The notes beneath the pieces are model-generated. The model saw only the letters and a program-made list of their open reading frames with translations, had not been told where the DNA came from and ran no database searches. Positions 12,483 through 19,378 of a DNA stretch of 38,514 nucleotides are shown here, piece after piece (the first letter of the stretch is position 1; the number at the start of each line of letters is the position of its first letter). The position numbers and the translations under genes were made by a program. Origin of the DNA: Gammaproteobacteria bacterium (GTDB lineage: Bacteria > Pseudomonadota > Gammaproteobacteria > Thiohalomonadales > Thiohalomonadaceae); the NCBI GenBank assembly GCA_026196575.1, contig JAPHSX010000056.1, positions 1 through 38,514 on the forward strand, in the 5' to 3' direction.

Positions 12483-13220
12483 TCAACTGCCGCTCATCCC
12501 CGCCGCCAGCAACAGGGTCACCACTTCGGCCCCCTCGATCAGTGCCCCGGCACTATCCCCGGTAAAGCCCTGCAAACGCTGCATCAGGGCACGGCGATAG
12601 ATCACAAAGAGGAGGGCGCTAACACCCCACACCCAGGGCGCCAGCCCCGGCAGCCACAACAGGGTGGCGGCCACCACCACGGCCAGCAGCAGCCAGGCGG
12701 CACGGCGCGGCAGGTGGCGCACCATATCGGAGGCCAGCCCCGCCTCGCGACAGTAGGGGGTGGTCAGCAGCAGCAGGATGGCGAAACTGCGGCCCACCAC
12801 CGGGGGGAGCAGCAACAGCAGCGGCGCGGCGACGAGAAGCTCTGTCAGGGCGGCGAACTTGAGCAGCAACACCGCCACCACCGCACTCACCCCCATCGGG
12901 CCGCAGTAGGGGTCTTTCATGATCGCCAGGGTACGCTCGCGATCCCCCTGACCGCCGACCCAGGCGTCGGCCATATCGGCCACCCCGTCGATGTGCAGCG
13001 CGCCGCTGAGCAGCAGCCACAGGGCAAGCAGCAGCGCCGCCTGCAACAGCGGGGCAAGTGCGGCGGTCAGCAGGGTCGCGGCGTAGAGCAGGGCGCCGAT
13101 GAGCAGCCCCACCAGCGGGTAGAAGAGCAGCGAGCGTCCGACCGCCTGCGGGCTTACCTGCGCATAGTGCGGCGTGGGTAGGCGGGTGAGAAACTGCAGG
13201 GCGAGCCAGAGGGGTTGCAT
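12483..13220 (-). CDS. cobS: Adenosylcobinamide-GDP ribazoletransferase (cobalamin synthase)
   Basis: A 245-residue inner-membrane enzyme that joins adenosylcobinamide-GDP with alpha-ribazole (or its 5'-phosphate) to complete the nucleotide loop of cobalamin. It shows the CobS opening LALQFLTRLPTP, several hydrophobic helices, and the conserved polar motif DGVADMADAWVGG with RTLAIMKDPYCGPMG soon after (about 80-115). The ATG overlaps the last base of the cobC stop codon. It is the last gene of the cobU-cobT-cobC-cobS set. Confidence 0.96.
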   Translation of the reverse strand: MQPLWLALQFLTRLPTPHYAQVSPQAVGRSLLFYPLVGLLIGALLYAATLLTAALAPLLQAALLLALWLLLSGALHIDGVADMADAWVGGQGDRERTLAIMKDPYCGPMGVSAVVAVLLLKFAALTELLVAAPLLLLLPPVVGRSFAILLLLTTPYCREAGLASDMVRHLPRRAAWLLLAVVVAATLLWLPGLAPWVWGVSALLFVIYRRALMQRLQGFTGDSAGALIEGAEVVTLLLAAGMSGS

Positions 13221-13831
13221 CAGATTGTCGGCCCCTCGAACACCAGCTGGGTGTAGGCGTCGCCGTGACGGCCGCTATCCACGCGCAGTCGGATGAGGGC
13301 GGCGTTGCGCAGGTCGAAGCGGTAGAAGCTATCGAGCGGCATGTTGAGCGCCTTGAGCAGCAGGATGCGCATCATCCCGGCGTGACCCACCAGCAGGAGC
13401 CGCTTGCCGGCATGGCGCAAGAGCAGTGCCTGCCACGCCGCCTCGATGCGCTCAGCAAAAGCGGGCAGCGGTTCGCCATTGGGCGGGGTGTGGGTGAGCG
13501 GATCCTGCCAGAAGGCGAAGAGTGCCGCCTCATCCCGCGCCATGATCTCCTTGGCCGTCAGCCCCTCCCAATCGCCAAAGCCGATCTCGCGAAACGGGAC
13601 ACAACGCTCCACCGGGACGGCGAGCCGCTCGCCCAGCTCGTCGGCAAAGGCGGCGCAGCGGCTGAGATCCGAGGTAACGATCTGCTGCCACTCGTCACGC
13701 CCCGCCACCGCCGCGCGCATCTGCGCCCAGCCAAGCTCAGAGAGCGGGTCATCCAGCTGGCCGCGATACCTCGCGCCGCCCACCGGTTCGCCGTGGCGCA
13801 GGATGTCAATAATGGTGGTCTGCTCGTCCAT
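13220..13831 (-). CDS. cobC: Histidine phosphatase, alpha-ribazole-5'-phosphate phosphatase type
   Basis: A 203-residue phosphoglycerate-mutase-fold phosphatase. The catalytic RHG motif is at 12-14 (H13 is the phospho-acceptor), the second catalytic His is H150 in LVGHAG, and GFGDWEGL lies at 84-91. Placement between cobT and cobS points to removal of the phosphate from alpha-ribazole-5'-phosphate or adenosylcobalamin-5'-phosphate. The fold alone does not fix the substrate. An in-frame stop just upstream rules out an earlier start; AAGGAG lies rather far (about 15 bases) from the ATG. Confidence 0.88.
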   Translation of the reverse strand: MDEQTTIIDILRHGEPVGGARYRGQLDDPLSELGWAQMRAAVAGRDEWQQIVTSDLSRCAAFADELGERLAVPVERCVPFREIGFGDWEGLTAKEIMARDEAALFAFWQDPLTHTPPNGEPLPAFAERIEAAWQALLLRHAGKRLLLVGHAGMMRILLLKALNMPLDSFYRFDLRNAALIRLRVDSGRHGDAYTQLVFEGPTI

Positions 13832-13840
13832 AAAAAATGG

Positions 13841-14893
13841 CTACGCTCCTTGCGCCACCCCCGCCTCGGCAAAGGTCGCCATGTTGTTGTGCAGGGCGCA
13901 GGCGAGGCGCAGCAGCGGCACGGTGACGGCGGCGCCGCTCCCCTCACCCAGGCGCATCCCAAGGTCCAGCAGCGGCTCTCCGCCGATGGCCGCCACCAGC
14001 GCGGCGTGGCCCGGCTCGGCCGAGGCGTGACTCAAGATCAGCCACGGGGCAATGGCGGGGTTGAGGCGCAGTGCCAGTAGCGCGGCACTGCTGCTGATAA
14101 AGCCGTCGACCAGTACCGGCAACCCAGCCTGCGCCGCGGCGATATAGGCGCCACAGAGGGCGGCGATCTCAAAGCCGCCGACACAGCGCAGGATGGCCAA
14201 CGGTGAGGCCATGGCAGCGCGGTGCAACACCAGCGCCCGCTCGATCACCTGCGCCTTGTGGCTCACGCCAGCGGCCGGGAGTCCGGTGCCTGGCCCCGCC
14301 AGTTCAATGGCGGGACGCTGCAGCAGGGCGCAGCCAATGGCGGTAGCGGCGGTGGTGTTGGCGATCCCCATCTCGCCGCCGATGAAGAGTTGCGCCTCGT
14401 TTGCCACGGCACGCGCCACCGCCTCGCGCCCGGCCGCCAGGGCATTGGCCAGCTGTGCCTCGCTCATCGCCGCCTCTTTGGCCAAATTGCTAGTGCCGTT
14501 GCCGGCACGCCGCGAGATCACCCCCGGCATGGCGGGCGACTCACTCGCCGCCCCCACATCGACCACCTCCAGCGTCGCCCCCAGGGTGTTGGCCAGCACG
14601 CTGATGGCCGCGCCGCCGTGGGCGAAGTTGGCGATCATCGCCACCGTCACCTCCTGGGGAAAGGCGGAGACCCCCTCGGTAGCCACCCCGTGGTCGGCGG
14701 CAAAGACCGCGATGTGGAGGCGCTCCAGCGAGGGCTGCTCTGCCCCCTGCATCCCCGCCAGCCGGATGGCGACCTGCTCAAGACGCCCCAGCGAACCGGG
14801 GGGCTTGGTCAGCTGCCCCTGACGCGCCTCGGCGGCGGCCGTCGCCGCTGCATCTATCGATGCCACCGGCCCCTGCAACCATTCGTTACCCAT
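13841..14893 (-). CDS. cobT: Nicotinate-nucleotide--dimethylbenzimidazole phosphoribosyltransferase
   Basis: A 350-residue enzyme that activates the lower ligand by making alpha-ribazole phosphate from nicotinate mononucleotide and dimethylbenzimidazole. Family blocks seen are [12 protein letters not shown] (28-39), [13 protein letters not shown] (64-76), [14 protein letters not shown] (172-185), SHASAEPGH (288-296) and LGEGSGAA (315-322). In the last, E317 corresponds to the catalytic Glu of the Salmonella enzyme. The ribosome site GGGGAGAGG lies inside the 3' end of cobU, and the ATG follows the cobU stop directly, so the two are coupled. No dimethylbenzimidazole synthesis gene is in the window. 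Confidence 0.97.
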
Positions 14894-15409
14894 TCACCTC
14901 TCCCCTTTTAAAATCATTGGCAGTCCGGCGGTGACGAAGGTCACCCGCTCGCACCTGGCGGCGACGGCCTGATGCAGCCGTCCGCTCTCATCGCAAAAAC
15001 GGCGTGTCAGTTCACCCATGGGGACGATCCCCAGCCCCACCTCGTTACTGACCAGAATAAGCTGGCCCGGCAGCTGCGGCAGCTGTGCCAGCAGCGCCTC
15101 ACGCTCCTCGGCGAAGACCGCCTCACCGGCGGCCAGCAGATTGCTCAACCAAAGGGTCAGGCAGTCGACCAGCAGGCAGCGGTGGGGCGCCGCCTGTTGG
15201 CGCAGCGTGGCCGCCAGTTGCCGTGGCTCTTCGATAGAGAGCCAGTGGCCGGGACGGCAGGCACGGTGGTGGGCGATGCGCTCACTCATCTCCGCATCGC
15301 GCGCCTCGGCGGTGGCGATGTAGACCACCTCCAGACCGCTATCAGCGGCGCGCTGTTCGGCCAGGGCGCTCTTGCCCGAACGGGCGCCGCCCAGAATCAG
15401 TTCACGCAT
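14894..15409 (-). CDS. cobU: Bifunctional adenosylcobinamide kinase / guanylyltransferase
   Basis: A 171-residue cytoplasmic enzyme that phosphorylates adenosylcobinamide and transfers GMP to it. The P-loop GGARSGKS is at 7-14, followed by the segment with the GMP-accepting His (SERIAHHRACRP), the DCLTLWLSN motif and VSNEVGLGIVP. I start at the ATG at 15409, which gives the family-typical MRELILGGARSGKS. An in-frame GTG nine bases earlier is possible; neither has a strong ribosome site. It is the first gene of the cob set. I looked upstream for a B12 riboswitch and did not find one. Confidence 0.95.
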   Translation of the reverse strand: MRELILGGARSGKSALAEQRAADSGLEVVYIATAEARDAEMSERIAHHRACRPGHWLSIEEPRQLAATLRQQAAPHRCLLVDCLTLWLSNLLAAGEAVFAEEREALLAQLPQLPGQLILVSNEVGLGIVPMGELTRRFCDESGRLHQAVAARCERVTFVTAGLPMILKGER

Positions 15410-15459
15410 GGGACTCACTCAAACCAGGGAGTGGGGAATGATACCGGCTTGAGGGGGGT

Positions 15460-15492
15460 TTGGGGATGGCTTGGGGATGATTTGGCCCGGAT
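15460..15492. repeat. Three tandem 11-base units
   Basis: TTGGGGATGGC, TTGGGGATGAT and a degenerate TTGGCCCGGAT follow one another in the 139-base gap between ampE and cobU. The gap has no other recognisable element. The unit could be a protein-binding repeat or slippage product. Confidence 0.45.
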
Positions 15493-15557
15493 GTTTACCG
15501 AATGGTTGCCAAATAGTTGATGGCGCTGCTACGGCCACGAACCTTGGGCTCCTGCCC

Positions 15558-16421
15558 TCATCCCATCCACCCGGCAAGGGTGGCGAAGGCGAGCAGCGCC
15601 AGAATCACCAGCACGGCACGGCGTACCAGGGCGATGCTCTCACCCACCTGCTCACAGGCGCGGCTGTCGTCCTCGATCTCGCCCGGCTCGACCCGCAAGG
15701 CGCCAAAGCCACTGGCGATGAGTACCTTGTCACTGCTCTGCGGCCAGCCGGGAGCAACGCCTCGCCAGCCATGCAGCGCCTCGACAAAGCTTCCCGCCAG
15801 GGCGTAGGCGATGGCGCAAAGACGGGCCGGCAGCCAGCCGAGCAGCCGCTGCAGTCGCCACCCCGCCTCGAAGATCCCCTCACCAGCCGCTGCCACGGGT
15901 GGCGGCAGTTGCGAGCCGAAACGGTAGAGCAACGCCCCGGCCGGGCCCAGCAACACAAACCAGAAGAGGATGGCGAGCAGGCGCTCATTGGCCTCGATAA
16001 AGATGCGCTCCATGATCCGTCGGGTCACCGCCCCGGAGCTTGCCAGCTCGGCGTCCCCCAACAGCTCGGCGGCGTGCCAGCAGGCCGACTCCTCGTCGCC
16101 ACGGCAGCGGGCATCAATAAAGGCCTCGACCTCCGCCTCCAGGTCGTGCGGGCCGAAACAGTAGAGCAGGGTCAGGACGGCGAAGAGGAGGCCCAACAGC
16201 TGCCACCAACCGCTGAGGTAGTAGTCGAGTACCACTACCGGGGCCAGCAGCGGCAGCAGCAGCAACAGCATCCCCAGCGGCCCGTTCAACCAGCGCAACC
16301 GCGCCAGGAGGGGGGCTGCCCGGCGACAATAGGCGACAAACCAGTCAAAGCGGCGTAACTCCTCCATCGAACCGAGGAGGCGCTCCAGTACCAGACTGAG
16401 GATGATTGCGATAAGGGCCAT
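15558..16421 (-). CDS. ampE: AmpE-like inner-membrane protein
   Basis: A 287-residue membrane protein similar in size and plan to E. coli AmpE. It starts with a hydrophobic helix containing LVLERLLG, has hydrophobic segments near 45-90, a soluble stretch, further helices near 145-165 and 190-215 (WLPARLCAIAYALAGS, matching the AmpE part VPVRLAGVVYALIG) and a C-terminal helix. AmpE is tied to AmpD and to beta-lactamase induction, though its activity is not settled; the family is distantly related to CobD/CbiB. It starts three bases after ampD stops, which is the classic ampDE pair. Confidence 0.88.
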   Translation of the reverse strand: MALIAIILSLVLERLLGSMEELRRFDWFVAYCRRAAPLLARLRWLNGPLGMLLLLLPLLAPVVVLDYYLSGWWQLLGLLFAVLTLLYCFGPHDLEAEVEAFIDARCRGDEESACWHAAELLGDAELASSGAVTRRIMERIFIEANERLLAILFWFVLLGPAGALLYRFGSQLPPPVAAAGEGIFEAGWRLQRLLGWLPARLCAIAYALAGSFVEALHGWRGVAPGWPQSSDKVLIASGFGALRVEPGEIEDDSRACEQVGESIALVRRAVLVILALLAFATLAGWMG

Positions 16422-17063: not shown

Positions 17064-17471
17064 TTACTTCAAGCCATTGACCAGGCCGCGCAGCACCATG
17101 TCGGTAAAGCTGATGATGCCGATCACCTCGCCGCCGTTCACCACCGGACAGCGCGACAGGCCAAAGCGGTCGAACAGGCGGGCGCAGTAGCGTATGTCCA
17201 TATCCGGGTCGACGGTGATCACCGGTTTGGCCATCACTTCGTAGACGTTGATACGCTCCGGGGCGCGATCCTTGGCCAGTACATTACGGGCGATATCGGA
17301 GATCAGCAGCATGCCGTACTCATCGTCCTCATGGCGCTTGTTGATGATCAGCGTCTTGGTCTCCACATGCCGCATCGTCTTCAGGGCATCGGCCACCGTG
17401 GTCATGCCGTCGACCATGTCAAACTGCGTCTTCATCACATCACGGACCCGCACTATCGTTCTGTCACTCAT
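17064..17471 (-). CDS. Two-CBS-domain protein
   Basis: A 135-residue protein made of one Bateman module: CBS1 at about 8-65 (VRDVMKTQFDMVDGMTTVADAL) and CBS2 at about 75-133 (VYEVMAKPVITVDPDMDIRYCA, ending GIISFTDMVLRGL). Such pairs bind adenosyl ligands (AMP, ATP, cAMP relatives or S-adenosylmethionine) and regulate a partner. The ribosome site GAGGAG overlaps the end of the P-II-like gene, whose stop is one base away. The partner is probably the DUF1538 membrane proteins; this is inferred from position. Confidence 0.93.
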   Translation of the reverse strand: MSDRTIVRVRDVMKTQFDMVDGMTTVADALKTMRHVETKTLIINKRHEDDEYGMLLISDIARNVLAKDRAPERINVYEVMAKPVITVDPDMDIRYCARLFDRFGLSRCPVVNGGEVIGIISFTDMVLRGLVNGLK

Positions 17472-17472
17472 C

Positions 17473-17823
17473 TCAGATCTCCTCTTCTACTGCCGACGTC
17501 AGCTCTTTTACCTGATGGATCACCCCCACCGCATCCTCCACATCGAGCTGGAAGGCGATGCCGGTGCCCGGCTTGTCGTCAAACTGCCCCACTTCGGCGA
17601 TCTTCTCCAGGATCTTGCGGCTCATGTGCTCCTCGACCAGGAACATCACCATGTCGCGCTGCGTCTCCAGCGACAGGCCAAAGAAGGTCTTGCTCTTATT
17701 TATCCCCTCGCCCCGCGCCTGGTTCAGCACCGTGGCGCCGGTGGCACCGGCCTCGCGTGCGGCATCGAGCACCGCCTCGGTCTTGTGATCCTCCAACAGG
17801 GCAATCAACAGTTTAAAGTGCAT
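17473..17823 (-). CDS. Divergent P-II-family protein
   Basis: A 116-residue protein with a P-II-like ferredoxin fold: an opening beta-strand (HFKLLIALL), a helix, GATGATVLNQARGEG at 26-40, then a short T-loop region (41-55), and a C-terminal strand IAFQLDVEDAVGVI at 89-102 resembling the P-II pattern FVYDVERAVRI. It lacks the canonical uridylylated Tyr and the Arg-rich C-terminal nucleotide contacts of GlnB/GlnK, so it is not a classic nitrogen P-II protein. The start at 17823 is set by GGAGAG upstream; the frame is open further but contains the end of the previous gene. It lies two bases after the second DUF1538 gene and one base before the CBS gene. It is likely a small-molecule sensor that docks on the DUF1538 proteins. 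Confidence 0.85.
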   Translation of the reverse strand: MHFKLLIALLEDHKTEAVLDAAREAGATGATVLNQARGEGINKSKTFFGLSLETQRDMVMFLVEEHMSRKILEKIAEVGQFDDKPGTGIAFQLDVEDAVGVIHQVKELTSAVEEEI

Positions 17824-17825
17824 GG

Positions 17826-18611
17826 TTACTCTCCAGATTGTTCCCGCCGCGCCGCGCGCCGGGCCTTCCAATGACTCAGTTGGGCATAGCCCATTACCGA
17901 CATAATCGGGAACAGGCTGGCAAAGGCGATGAGACCGAAACCATCCAGCATCGGGCTGCGTCCGGGTACGGTGCTGGCCAACCCCAGTCCCAGCGCGGTA
18001 ACCAGCGGCACGGTAACGGTGGAGGTGGTCACCCCGCCCGAATCGTAGGCCAGGGCGATGATCATCCGCGGGGCGTAGAGAGTCTGGATAATGACCACGA
18101 TATAGCCGACGATGATGTAGTAGTGTAACGGCGTGCCGGTGACGATGCGCAAGGTGCCGAGCGCGATGCCGATGGCCACCCCCAGCGCCACCGCGGTGCG
18201 CAACCCCCTCACGCTAATGGCACCAGCGGAGACCTCCTGCGCCTTAATCGCCACCGCGATAAGTGAGGGCTCCGCCACGGTAGTGGCAAAACCGATGGCA
18301 AAGGCAAAGAGGTAGACCCAGCCGTAATCACTCCAGCGCAGCGCCCGTGCCACCCCCTCGCCGAGGATAAAGGCGGGGGCGGTGAGCTGCTCGGCCATCA
18401 GCTTACCGAGCGGGAAGAGCGCCTCCTCCAGACCGACAAGGAACAGCGACAACCCCAATAAGACATAGCCAAAACCGAACAATACCTGCTTCAGGTGGGG
18501 GACGGGGCGGCGGATGACAAAGAGCTGGAAACCGAAGATGATGGCGGCGATGGGCAGCACATCCAGCACGGTCGCCAGGGTGGTGTCGAAGATGAGCTGC
18601 AACACCTCCAT
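17826..18611 (-). CDS. DUF1538 membrane protein, second copy
   Basis: A 261-residue inner-membrane protein with about six or seven hydrophobic segments. Two conserved half-motifs stand out: TTVAEPSLIAV (110-120) and [20 protein letters not shown] (189-208), the latter followed by [19 protein letters not shown] (217-235). Conserved Thr, Ser, Glu and Asp within membrane segments suggest a transport path. The C-terminal tail (248-261) is basic. Function is not established for the family. Its ATG overlaps the stop of the first copy by one base, so equal translation and a heteromeric complex are likely. The P-II-like gene follows after two bases. Confidence 0.85.
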   Translation of the reverse strand: MEVLQLIFDTTLATVLDVLPIAAIIFGFQLFVIRRPVPHLKQVLFGFGYVLLGLSLFLVGLEEALFPLGKLMAEQLTAPAFILGEGVARALRWSDYGWVYLFAFAIGFATTVAEPSLIAVAIKAQEVSAGAISVRGLRTAVALGVAIGIALGTLRIVTGTPLHYYIIVGYIVVIIQTLYAPRMIIALAYDSGGVTTSTVTVPLVTALGLGLASTVPGRSPMLDGFGLIAFASLFPIMSVMGYAQLSHWKARRAARREQSGE

Positions 18612-19378
18612 CAGATCACCATGCCGTAACCCATGACGAAGATCATCGGCGTCAGCGAGGCAAAGGCGATGAGGCCAAAGCCGTCGATCATCGGGTTGCG
18701 CCCCTTGATGCTGGAGGCAAGCCCCACCCCCAGCGCGGTGACCAGCGGCACGGTGATAGTGGAGGTGGTGACCCCGCCCGAATCATAGGCGATGCCGATG
18801 ATCTCCTCGGGGGCGAAGGCGGTCATCACCACCACGCCGAGGTAGCCGCCGATGATGAAATACTGGATAGGCCACCCCTTGAGGATACGCAACACCCCCA
18901 GCACGATGGCAAAACCGACCGACAGGGCGACGGTGAGGCGCAGGCCGCTGGCATAGCCGTCGCGCGCCGCCTCACTCTCCCCGATCATCCCCCCCGCCGC
19001 CGCCACCTTGGCCGCCTCGGCCGCCACCGCGATGAGGGCCGGTTCGGCCACGGTGGTACCAAAGCCGAGGGCGAAGGCGAAGGCGAGCAGCCACCAGACA
19101 CTGCCCTTGCGTGCAAAGTCGTAGGCCATACCCTCGCCGATGGGAAAGAGCCCCATCTCCAGCCCGCGCACGAAGAGGGTCAGCCCCAGCACCACCAGCA
19201 CGGTGCCAAAGAGCAATTTACCCATATTGGGGATCGGCTGCTGCAGCACCACCAGCTGAAAGAAGGCGATCACCAGCAGGATCGGCAACAGATCGCGCAG
19301 GCTGGCGATGAAGGGGCGCAGGATGGCGGCAACGGGCAGGCTCAAGGGGACTTCCGGCAACAGTAACTGAAGCCACAA
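18611..19378 (-). CDS. DUF1538 membrane protein, first copy
   Basis: A paralogue of the next gene, sharing [12 protein letters not shown] (108-119), [20 protein letters not shown] (198-217) and [19 protein letters not shown] (226-244). It has about seven hydrophobic segments and ends at GYGMVI without the paralogue's basic tail. The start is unsettled: the frame opens with a TTG at 19378 that has no ribosome site. A TTG at 19345 has GGAAG a suitable distance upstream and fits the N terminus of the paralogue better. There is no ATG before residue 52. It is the first gene of the run that continues through P-II-like, CBS, ampD and ampE. Confidence 0.85.

Follow-up and report, generated by a model that had tools for sequence, protein, structure and literature searches.

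UmpAB-type DUF1538 proteins encoded with a P-II-like protein and, often, a two-CBS protein

Two DUF1538 membrane proteins of Halomonas zhaodongensis, UmpA and UmpB, were described in 2017 as forming a heterodimer with Na+(Li+,K+)/H+ antiport activity, optimal at pH 9, according to the available text of that report (PMC5484666). Relatives of this pair are encoded in the stretch of DNA analysed here, contig JAPHSX010000056.1 of a bacterium of the Thiohalomonadaceae (the window, 38,514 nucleotides), where they are followed on the minus strand by genes for a small P-II-like protein and a two-CBS protein. Within the literature searched, these dedicated P-II-like and often CBS partners are a new element of an established antiporter family.

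The available text on the Halomonas proteins reports their discovery by heterologous rescue, with Escherichia coli KNabc as host, a membrane location, and antiport in vesicles with Na+, Li+ and K+; umpA and umpB overlap by one base, and the cloned fragment held umpAB and two other transporter open reading frames (ORFs) (PMC5484666). Passages of two papers on cable bacteria regard UmpAB homologues as likely salt adaptations (PMC12093952, PMC10030654), and a machine-learning study, in the passage available, lists DUF1538 among pH-adaptation features alongside Mnh/Mrp, TrkH and Kdp domains (PMC13255231). On the regulator side, there are solved complexes of P-II-fold proteins with membrane transporters: the trimer SbtB binds AMP and inserts its T-loop into SbtA, as GlnK does into AmtB, and the role of SbtB in vivo is called unsettled in the same source (PMC8352866). 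The target of the CBS-CP12 protein is given as phosphoribulokinase in the text available (PMC9514657). As to control of UmpAB, nothing was found in the open-licence literature searched, where the citing-paper passages treat the transporter pair only, and the main text of the 2017 report returned zero matches for P-II, PII, GlnB, GlnK, 'nitrogen regulat', CBS and cystathionine.

The four-gene locus and its products

The locus comprises four minus-strand ORFs running from 19345 (or 19378) to 17064, with a 1-base overlap at 18611 and gaps of 2 bases (17824-17825) and 1 base (17472). An earlier note on this DNA, made from the letters alone, had given exactly this arrangement, and its family assignments were confirmed by Pfam:

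18611-19345 (ORF 18611-19378), minus strand: DUF1538 membrane protein, umpA-like, related to antiporter subunit A (Pfam DUF1538; NCBIfam UmpA; GGAAG at 19355-19351)
17826-18611, minus strand: DUF1538 membrane protein, umpB-like, related to antiporter subunit B (Pfam DUF1538; NCBIfam UmpB)
17473-17823, minus strand: P-II-like protein of 116 aa (Pfam P-II; predicted model; subfamily profile A4)
17064-17471, minus strand: two-CBS (Bateman) protein of 135 aa (Pfam CBS in two stretches; relative 5nmu)

The first two proteins matched Pfam DUF1538 (PF07556) with 237 and 223.9 bits, respectively, at a cut-off of 22.6. Of the NCBIfam pair NF041627/NF041628, the UmpA model was best for the first protein (384 bits, under the equivalog cut-off of 490) and the UmpB model for the second (349.5 bits, under the cut-off of 500), and both models were covered nearly full length. 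Judged by these sequence matches, the window DUF1538 proteins are relatives of UmpA and UmpB, the subunits of the Na+(Li+,K+)/H+ antiporter. The earlier note had held DUF1538 to have no established function and the substrate to be unknown; since the pair was characterised as the antiporter UmpAB in 2017, with Na+(Li+,K+)/H+ antiport given in the available text (PMC5484666), and NCBIfam models exist, neither statement stands. The UmpA equivalog cut-off was reached by none of the genomes in the sets searched (369, 20, 254 and 116 genomes, some recurring); the best UmpA scores seen were 444 and 435.5 bits (G984 and G985), and both loci (L249 and L250) hold P-II-like and CBS genes.

A fused UmpAB homologue (L041, 514 aa) gave a predicted model with a predicted local distance difference test score (pLDDT) of 85.4 and a predicted template modelling score of 0.85. 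Fold searches with this model revealed no clear relative (Foldseek best E 0.011, VIA best Z 5.2), the weak rows mixing elevator-type carriers with many unrelated proteins, and a sequence search of the UmpAB profile against all solved chains gave nothing significant (best E 0.3). Invariant columns of alignment A5 include E108, D184, E369 and D445, that is, a glutamate and an aspartate in each half.

The third protein matched Pfam P-II with 47.5 bits (cut-off 25). A predicted model of residues 1-114 (pLDDT 86.9) matched P-II, GlnK, GlnB, SbtB and CPII structures, with Foldseek E values down to 6.6e-8 and a VIA match to 3lf0_B at Z 13.5 (root mean square deviation 2.8, 102 residues aligned), so that the protein is predicted to have the P-II ferredoxin-like fold. 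It is distinct from the two canonical P-II proteins encoded elsewhere in the same genome, as profile A4 scored it at 166.5 bits versus 25.4 bits for one of them. Residues were compared in an alignment of 182 P-II-like sequences with these two canonical proteins, the points of reference being K90, R101 and R103, which we take to be the ATP-phosphate ligands of canonical P-II, and Tyr51, presumably the T-loop tyrosine that gets modified. The K90 position is isoleucine in the window protein and I, V or L in 176 of the 182 relatives; the R101 position is glycine in 174; the R103 position is variable, with isoleucine in the window; at the Tyr51 position the window protein has threonine and the relatives mainly T, S or A; and all 182 lack an equivalent of canonical residues 57-61. 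T29, G35, G37, G87 and G89 are each preserved in between 157 and 182 of the sequences, and the stretch K-T-F-F-G-L-x-L-E-x-Q-R-D is strongly conserved; the window protein contains no cysteine. An identity as ordinary GlnB or GlnK was rejected on account of the four changed positions and the two canonical P-II proteins elsewhere in the genome. The earlier note's statement that P-II proteins bind nucleotides does not transfer directly to this protein, as the presumed phosphate-ligand residues are replaced.

The fourth protein matched Pfam CBS with 64.6 bits (cut-off 24) in two stretches, equivalent to two CBS domains or one Bateman module, and its closest solved relative by sequence is CBS-CP12 (5nmu, E 5.7e-25, residues 6-128). 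Among the 135 member sequences collected, the Asp at the end of the CBS motif, presumably ribose-binding in each domain, is present at position 54 in 120 and at position 119 in 101; the window protein has both.

Regarding gene starts, the P-II-like gene has an ATG at 17823, with a TTG ORF start further upstream at 17871. The umpA-like gene lacks an opening ATG and has two candidate starts, TTG 19345 and TTG 19378. The former is the likelier one, because the NCBIfam UmpA match starts at residue 17 of the 255-residue version and GGAAG lies five bases upstream of 19345.

Conservation of the gene set

Gene neighbourhoods were compared in 153 loci, of which 73 were picked from the best-scoring places among the matches listed and 80 were the best of 575 relatives. 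The 73 picks leave aside unlisted places and some listed clusters, for example in G212, G173, G128, G278, G198, G184, G209 and G195, and L001-L031 are short stretches. In these loci and the window, 147 of 155 clusters have a P-II-like gene downstream of DUF1538 in the same orientation, with 35-264 bases between the matched domains, and a gene of the CBS subfamily follows the P-II-like gene in 120 of 155, at a spacing of 18-45 bases in 118 and of 384 and 404 bases in the other two. Split by origin, the 73 loci with the window gave P-II-like in 71/75 and CBS in 46/75 clusters, and the other 80 loci gave 76/80 and 74/80. Species carrying all four genes include Colwellia demingiae (L182) and Thiohalocapsa marina (L171). 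Of the eight clusters lacking P-II, four are cut off by the end of the contig (L134, L148, L155, L169) and one (L059) is a double operon that holds two P-II genes. In a survey with the UmpA profile, 14/14 neighbourhoods examined, of 53 matching genomes, have both the P-II-like and the CBS gene; in four further neighbourhoods (G877, G868, G751, G685) the P-II-like gene was found in 4/4 and the CBS gene in 3/4, the G685 stretch (L241) being without it.

The genes flanking the operon behave differently. Upstream and divergent are an ORF of the TIGR02281-type aspartic protease and an AgcS-type amino-acid carrier; 15 bases downstream of the CBS gene comes ampD, followed by an ORF with matches to the AmpE and CobD/CbiB models (Pfam CobD_Cbib, AmpE). 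These flanks rarely recur in the 153 loci (AmpD-like 24, AmpE-like 10, protease 1, AgcS 2), as against 146 for P-II-like and 120 for CBS. Such a four-gene arrangement goes far beyond what chance would give. Coincidence and simple regional synteny were both rejected as its origin, given that the flanks are not conserved and the link is kept in divergent forms and distant genomes. Further along, at 12483-16421 of the window, ORFs resembling the CobS, CobC, CobT and CobU types of cobalamin synthesis were recognised by eye, followed by the AmpE/CobD-like ORF and ampD.

Since the fetched loci were picks from high-scoring members, presence was checked across whole genomes. For 299 genomes drawn over the phylum, a P-II-like gene was taken as a match to profile A4 at E ≤ 1e-12 and a CBS subfamily gene as a match to profile A6 at E ≤ 1e-25, the profiles having been built from 74 of the 182 P-II-like and 58 of the 135 CBS sequences collected. 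DUF1538 and the P-II-like subfamily are each present in 116/299 genomes; 111 genomes have both, 5 have DUF1538 only, 5 have P-II-like only and 178 have neither (Fisher 1e-68, relatedness uncorrected). As the genomes are related, with family f33 heavily represented, and many are incomplete, the Fisher value overstates independence. The CBS subfamily occurs in 62/299 genomes, and all 62 have both DUF1538 and P-II-like. Counting DUF1538 neighbours in other genomes, as the earlier note had suggested, was therefore strongly positive for P-II-like (111/116 DUF1538 genomes) and positive for CBS in about half (62/116); its outline of a membrane transporter with P-II-like and CBS partners proved right and is supported by the neighbour and genome counts alike. 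A CBS gene that is always present, as a stricter version would have it, is not supported.

The same pattern was seen among 56 taxonomic relatives, 29 of which have DUF1538. P-II-like matches reached 94.7-169.8 bits in 28 of these 29 and at most 32.5 bits in the 27 others; CBS matches reached 148.9-201.1 bits in 26 of the 29 and at most 64.6 bits in the 27 others. In G300, the single exception among the 29 for P-II-like, a weak match of 27.8 bits adjoins the DUF1538 gene.

The partnership was also followed into 27 further loci, including Clostridia and Alphaproteobacteria, most with fused or divergent DUF1538 (L200, L209 and L210 are not divergent). A neighbouring P-II-like match was found in 27/27, one of them (L192) at 17 bits. 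Because units of Pseudomonadota and of Clostridia alike include the P-II-like gene, the partnership may date back very far. In four clostridial loci (L185, L189, L190, L191) UmpA and UmpB form one protein and two P-II domains form another, the halves of which score unequally. Single-chain UmpAB fusions or plasmid copies from Paraclostridium, Peptoclostridium, Vescimonas, Acetoanaerobium, Subdoligranulum, Methylocystis and Chelativorans all lack CBS (7/7). Seven of nine plasmid DUF1538 records were examined; the five annotated ones all label the following gene 'P-II family nitrogen regulator', and the remaining two, unannotated, match the P-II-like profile. Conversely, a plasmid search with the P-II-like protein returned four records, all among the nine DUF1538 plasmids. 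In L208 the gene order is P-II-CBS-UmpAB. As a separate observation, the L192 match lies in a 444-residue ORF (L192:3613-4944) after a 693-residue fused DUF1538 protein and may represent a strongly diverged regulator.

Five genomes, all from genus g463 (L236, L238, L249, L250, L251), have two complete UmpA-UmpB-P-II-CBS sets next to each other. The second set scores unlike the first, which indicates two diverged units, probably brought together once; repeated duplication of the whole unit was rejected because the sets differ in score and all are within this genus. L236, L238 and L251 carry an additional P-II-like gene ahead of the first umpA. A double arrangement of another kind, in L059/L230, consists of fused UmpAB, P-II, CBS, P-II and a further DUF1538 pair.

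In some genomes the genes are separated. Two genomes of family f53, G116 and G084, have the P-II-CBS pair and umpAB on different contigs with all of them retained, and in G309 (L244/L245) the CBS gene lies ~35 kb away, again with all genes retained. That the genes persist even when apart points to a common function. In G116 the P-II-like and CBS genes directly follow an ORF of the malic-enzyme/phosphotransacetylase (PTA) type, away from umpAB (L223:156-3203).

P-II-like copies away from DUF1538 were viewed in 16 stretches, L230 having been chosen for its double operon and the others for a stand-alone P-II-like gene; 15 are without DUF1538, and in L222 and L225 the contigs end near the P-II gene. 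Neighbours were named by Pfam for ORFs of L216 (ETF-QO-like), L217 (amino-acid kinase) and L219 (Dus and PAS/histidine-kinase), and otherwise by eye. In L216-L219, L224 and L227-L229 the P-II-like gene is near 0.4-4.8 kb, several beside SH3-domain and argB-like ORFs or a Dus/histidine-kinase pair. Possibly the stand-alone copies in these families have a second target.

Proposed mode of control and alternatives

Taking together the identity of the genes, the predicted P-II fold, the two CBS domains, the near-perfect co-occurrence and adjacency, and the antiport reported in the literature for the Halomonas homologue, we think it probable that the operon specifies a cation/proton antiporter of the UmpAB type, gated by a P-II-like protein dedicated to it and, in many proteobacteria, also by a CBS protein, after the manner of AmtB-GlnK and SbtA-SbtB. 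Contact between the proteins, the trimer, the ligands, the direction of control, the stoichiometry and the role of the CBS protein we infer as follows. UmpA and UmpB would exchange Na+, Li+ or K+ out for H+ in. The P-II-like protein, presumably trimeric, would sit at the cytoplasmic face of UmpAB, where its conserved T-loop region would slow or block the exchange, in the way that GlnK acts on AmtB and SbtB supposedly on SbtA. Its state would be set by a small ligand, most likely AMP or ADP; with the canonical positions replaced, an adenylate with one or two phosphates, or some other small molecule, is expected in place of ATP with 2-oxoglutarate. As a further sensor of adenylates, the CBS protein would act either on UmpAB or on the P-II-like protein. 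Such a device could throttle antiport at low energy and so spare the proton gradient that antiport spends. Combining the reported UmpAB heterodimer with a P-II trimer predicts either three UmpAB pairs or an asymmetric complex.

Several observations weigh against this proposal. At the threshold used, 54/116 DUF1538 genomes are without the CBS subfamily, and the discordant genomes number 5/299 in each direction. The genome-wide counts are free of the locus-picking bias that attaches to the selected 153 loci, yet profiles A4 and A6 were derived from picked loci. Three DUF1538 pairs (L055, L088, L098) have no adjoining P-II gene despite room for one; their genomes (G121, G093 and G116, respectively) have P-II-like genes elsewhere. 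P-II-like paralogues stand apart from DUF1538 in some genomes, beside SH3-domain, argB-like, Dus, PAS/histidine-kinase and ETF-QO-like ORFs. With the presumed phosphate-ligand positions and Tyr51 replaced, nucleotide binding is not assured, nor are substrates identical to those of UmpAB, the window proteins being below the equivalog cut-offs. Finally, the ORFs described for the Halomonas clone include no P-II-like or CBS gene, so that antiport activity is possible without them.

One alternative is that UmpAB is under P-II-like control but has another natural substrate, for instance an organic ion, ammonium or bicarbonate; the Na+(K+)/H+ antiport observed in the E. coli host would then be a side activity or half of the cycle. 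To our knowledge, the transporter partners of P-II known so far, AmtB and SbtA, carry nutrients, which favours this alternative, as do the scores under the UmpA and UmpB cut-offs and the fold searches with the fused homologue, which gave no clear relative and so leave room for another transport class. Against it stand the exchange of Na+, Li+ and K+ measured directly in vesicles for the Halomonas pair, as given in the available text (PMC5484666), and the passage listing DUF1538 with the Mnh/Mrp, TrkH and Kdp domains of pH adaptation (PMC13255231), which fits ion and pH homeostasis; we consider this alternative unlikely.

More doubtful is a scheme in which the P-II-like and CBS proteins never touch UmpAB and the operon is merely a co-expressed set, the two proteins sensing ion or energy state and acting on other enzymes or on expression. 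The unlinked arrangements, with P-II-CBS beside the malic-enzyme/PTA ORF in G116, would suit it, as would the paralogues near argB-like and histidine-kinase ORFs; it is countered by co-inheritance across distant taxa and in the side-by-side sets, and by the established precedents of P-II proteins docking on the transporter they are encoded with. The least probable of the alternatives, in our estimate, assigns the P-II-like protein alone to the antiporter and makes the CBS protein an occasional passenger with its own job. The many DUF1538 genomes and the seven plasmid loci without CBS agree with this, but the CBS subfamily is always found with DUF1538 and P-II-like (62/62 in the 299 genomes), each side-by-side set has its own CBS gene, and CBS is retained when displaced (G309, L244/L245).

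Whether the gated antiporter exemplifies a widespread class of P-II-gated transport with a cation/proton antiporter as target in place of a nutrient transporter, in which a divergent P-II-like trimer, joined by a CBS sensor in many proteobacteria, ties Na+/K+ and pH homeostasis directly to adenylate state, is in our view evenly poised. If P-II-like and CBS proteins do gate UmpAB, a whole antiporter family would gain a regulator and P-II signalling a new target class, ion and pH homeostasis; the two-sensor switch would be testable with four small genes in antiporter-deficient E. coli.

Comparison with known systems

The window resembles Halomonas UmpAB in having two adjacent homologous DUF1538 proteins, A before B, with a one-base overlap, as far as the available text describes that pair (PMC5484666). 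It differs in scoring below the equivalog cut-offs and in its P-II-like and CBS genes, for which terms are absent from the main text of the Halomonas paper.

CBS-CP12 binds AMP and is the closest solved sequence relative of the window CBS protein, which, in contrast, ends where the CP12 part would begin. As in the window, the transporter gene of SbtA-SbtB shares its operon with a gene for a small P-II-fold protein, and SbtB structures are among the fold matches of the predicted window model; the differences are that SbtA is one protein and UmpAB two, and that the CGPxGC tail of some SbtB proteins is absent from the window protein. A CBS protein partnering SbtA-SbtB is not known to us. The window P-II-like family has not kept the tyrosine and the phosphate-binding residues of canonical GlnK, but with AmtB-GlnK the window has in common a membrane transporter with a co-encoded P-II protein, and GlnK structures, including the AmtB complex 2ns1, are among the matches of the predicted fold.

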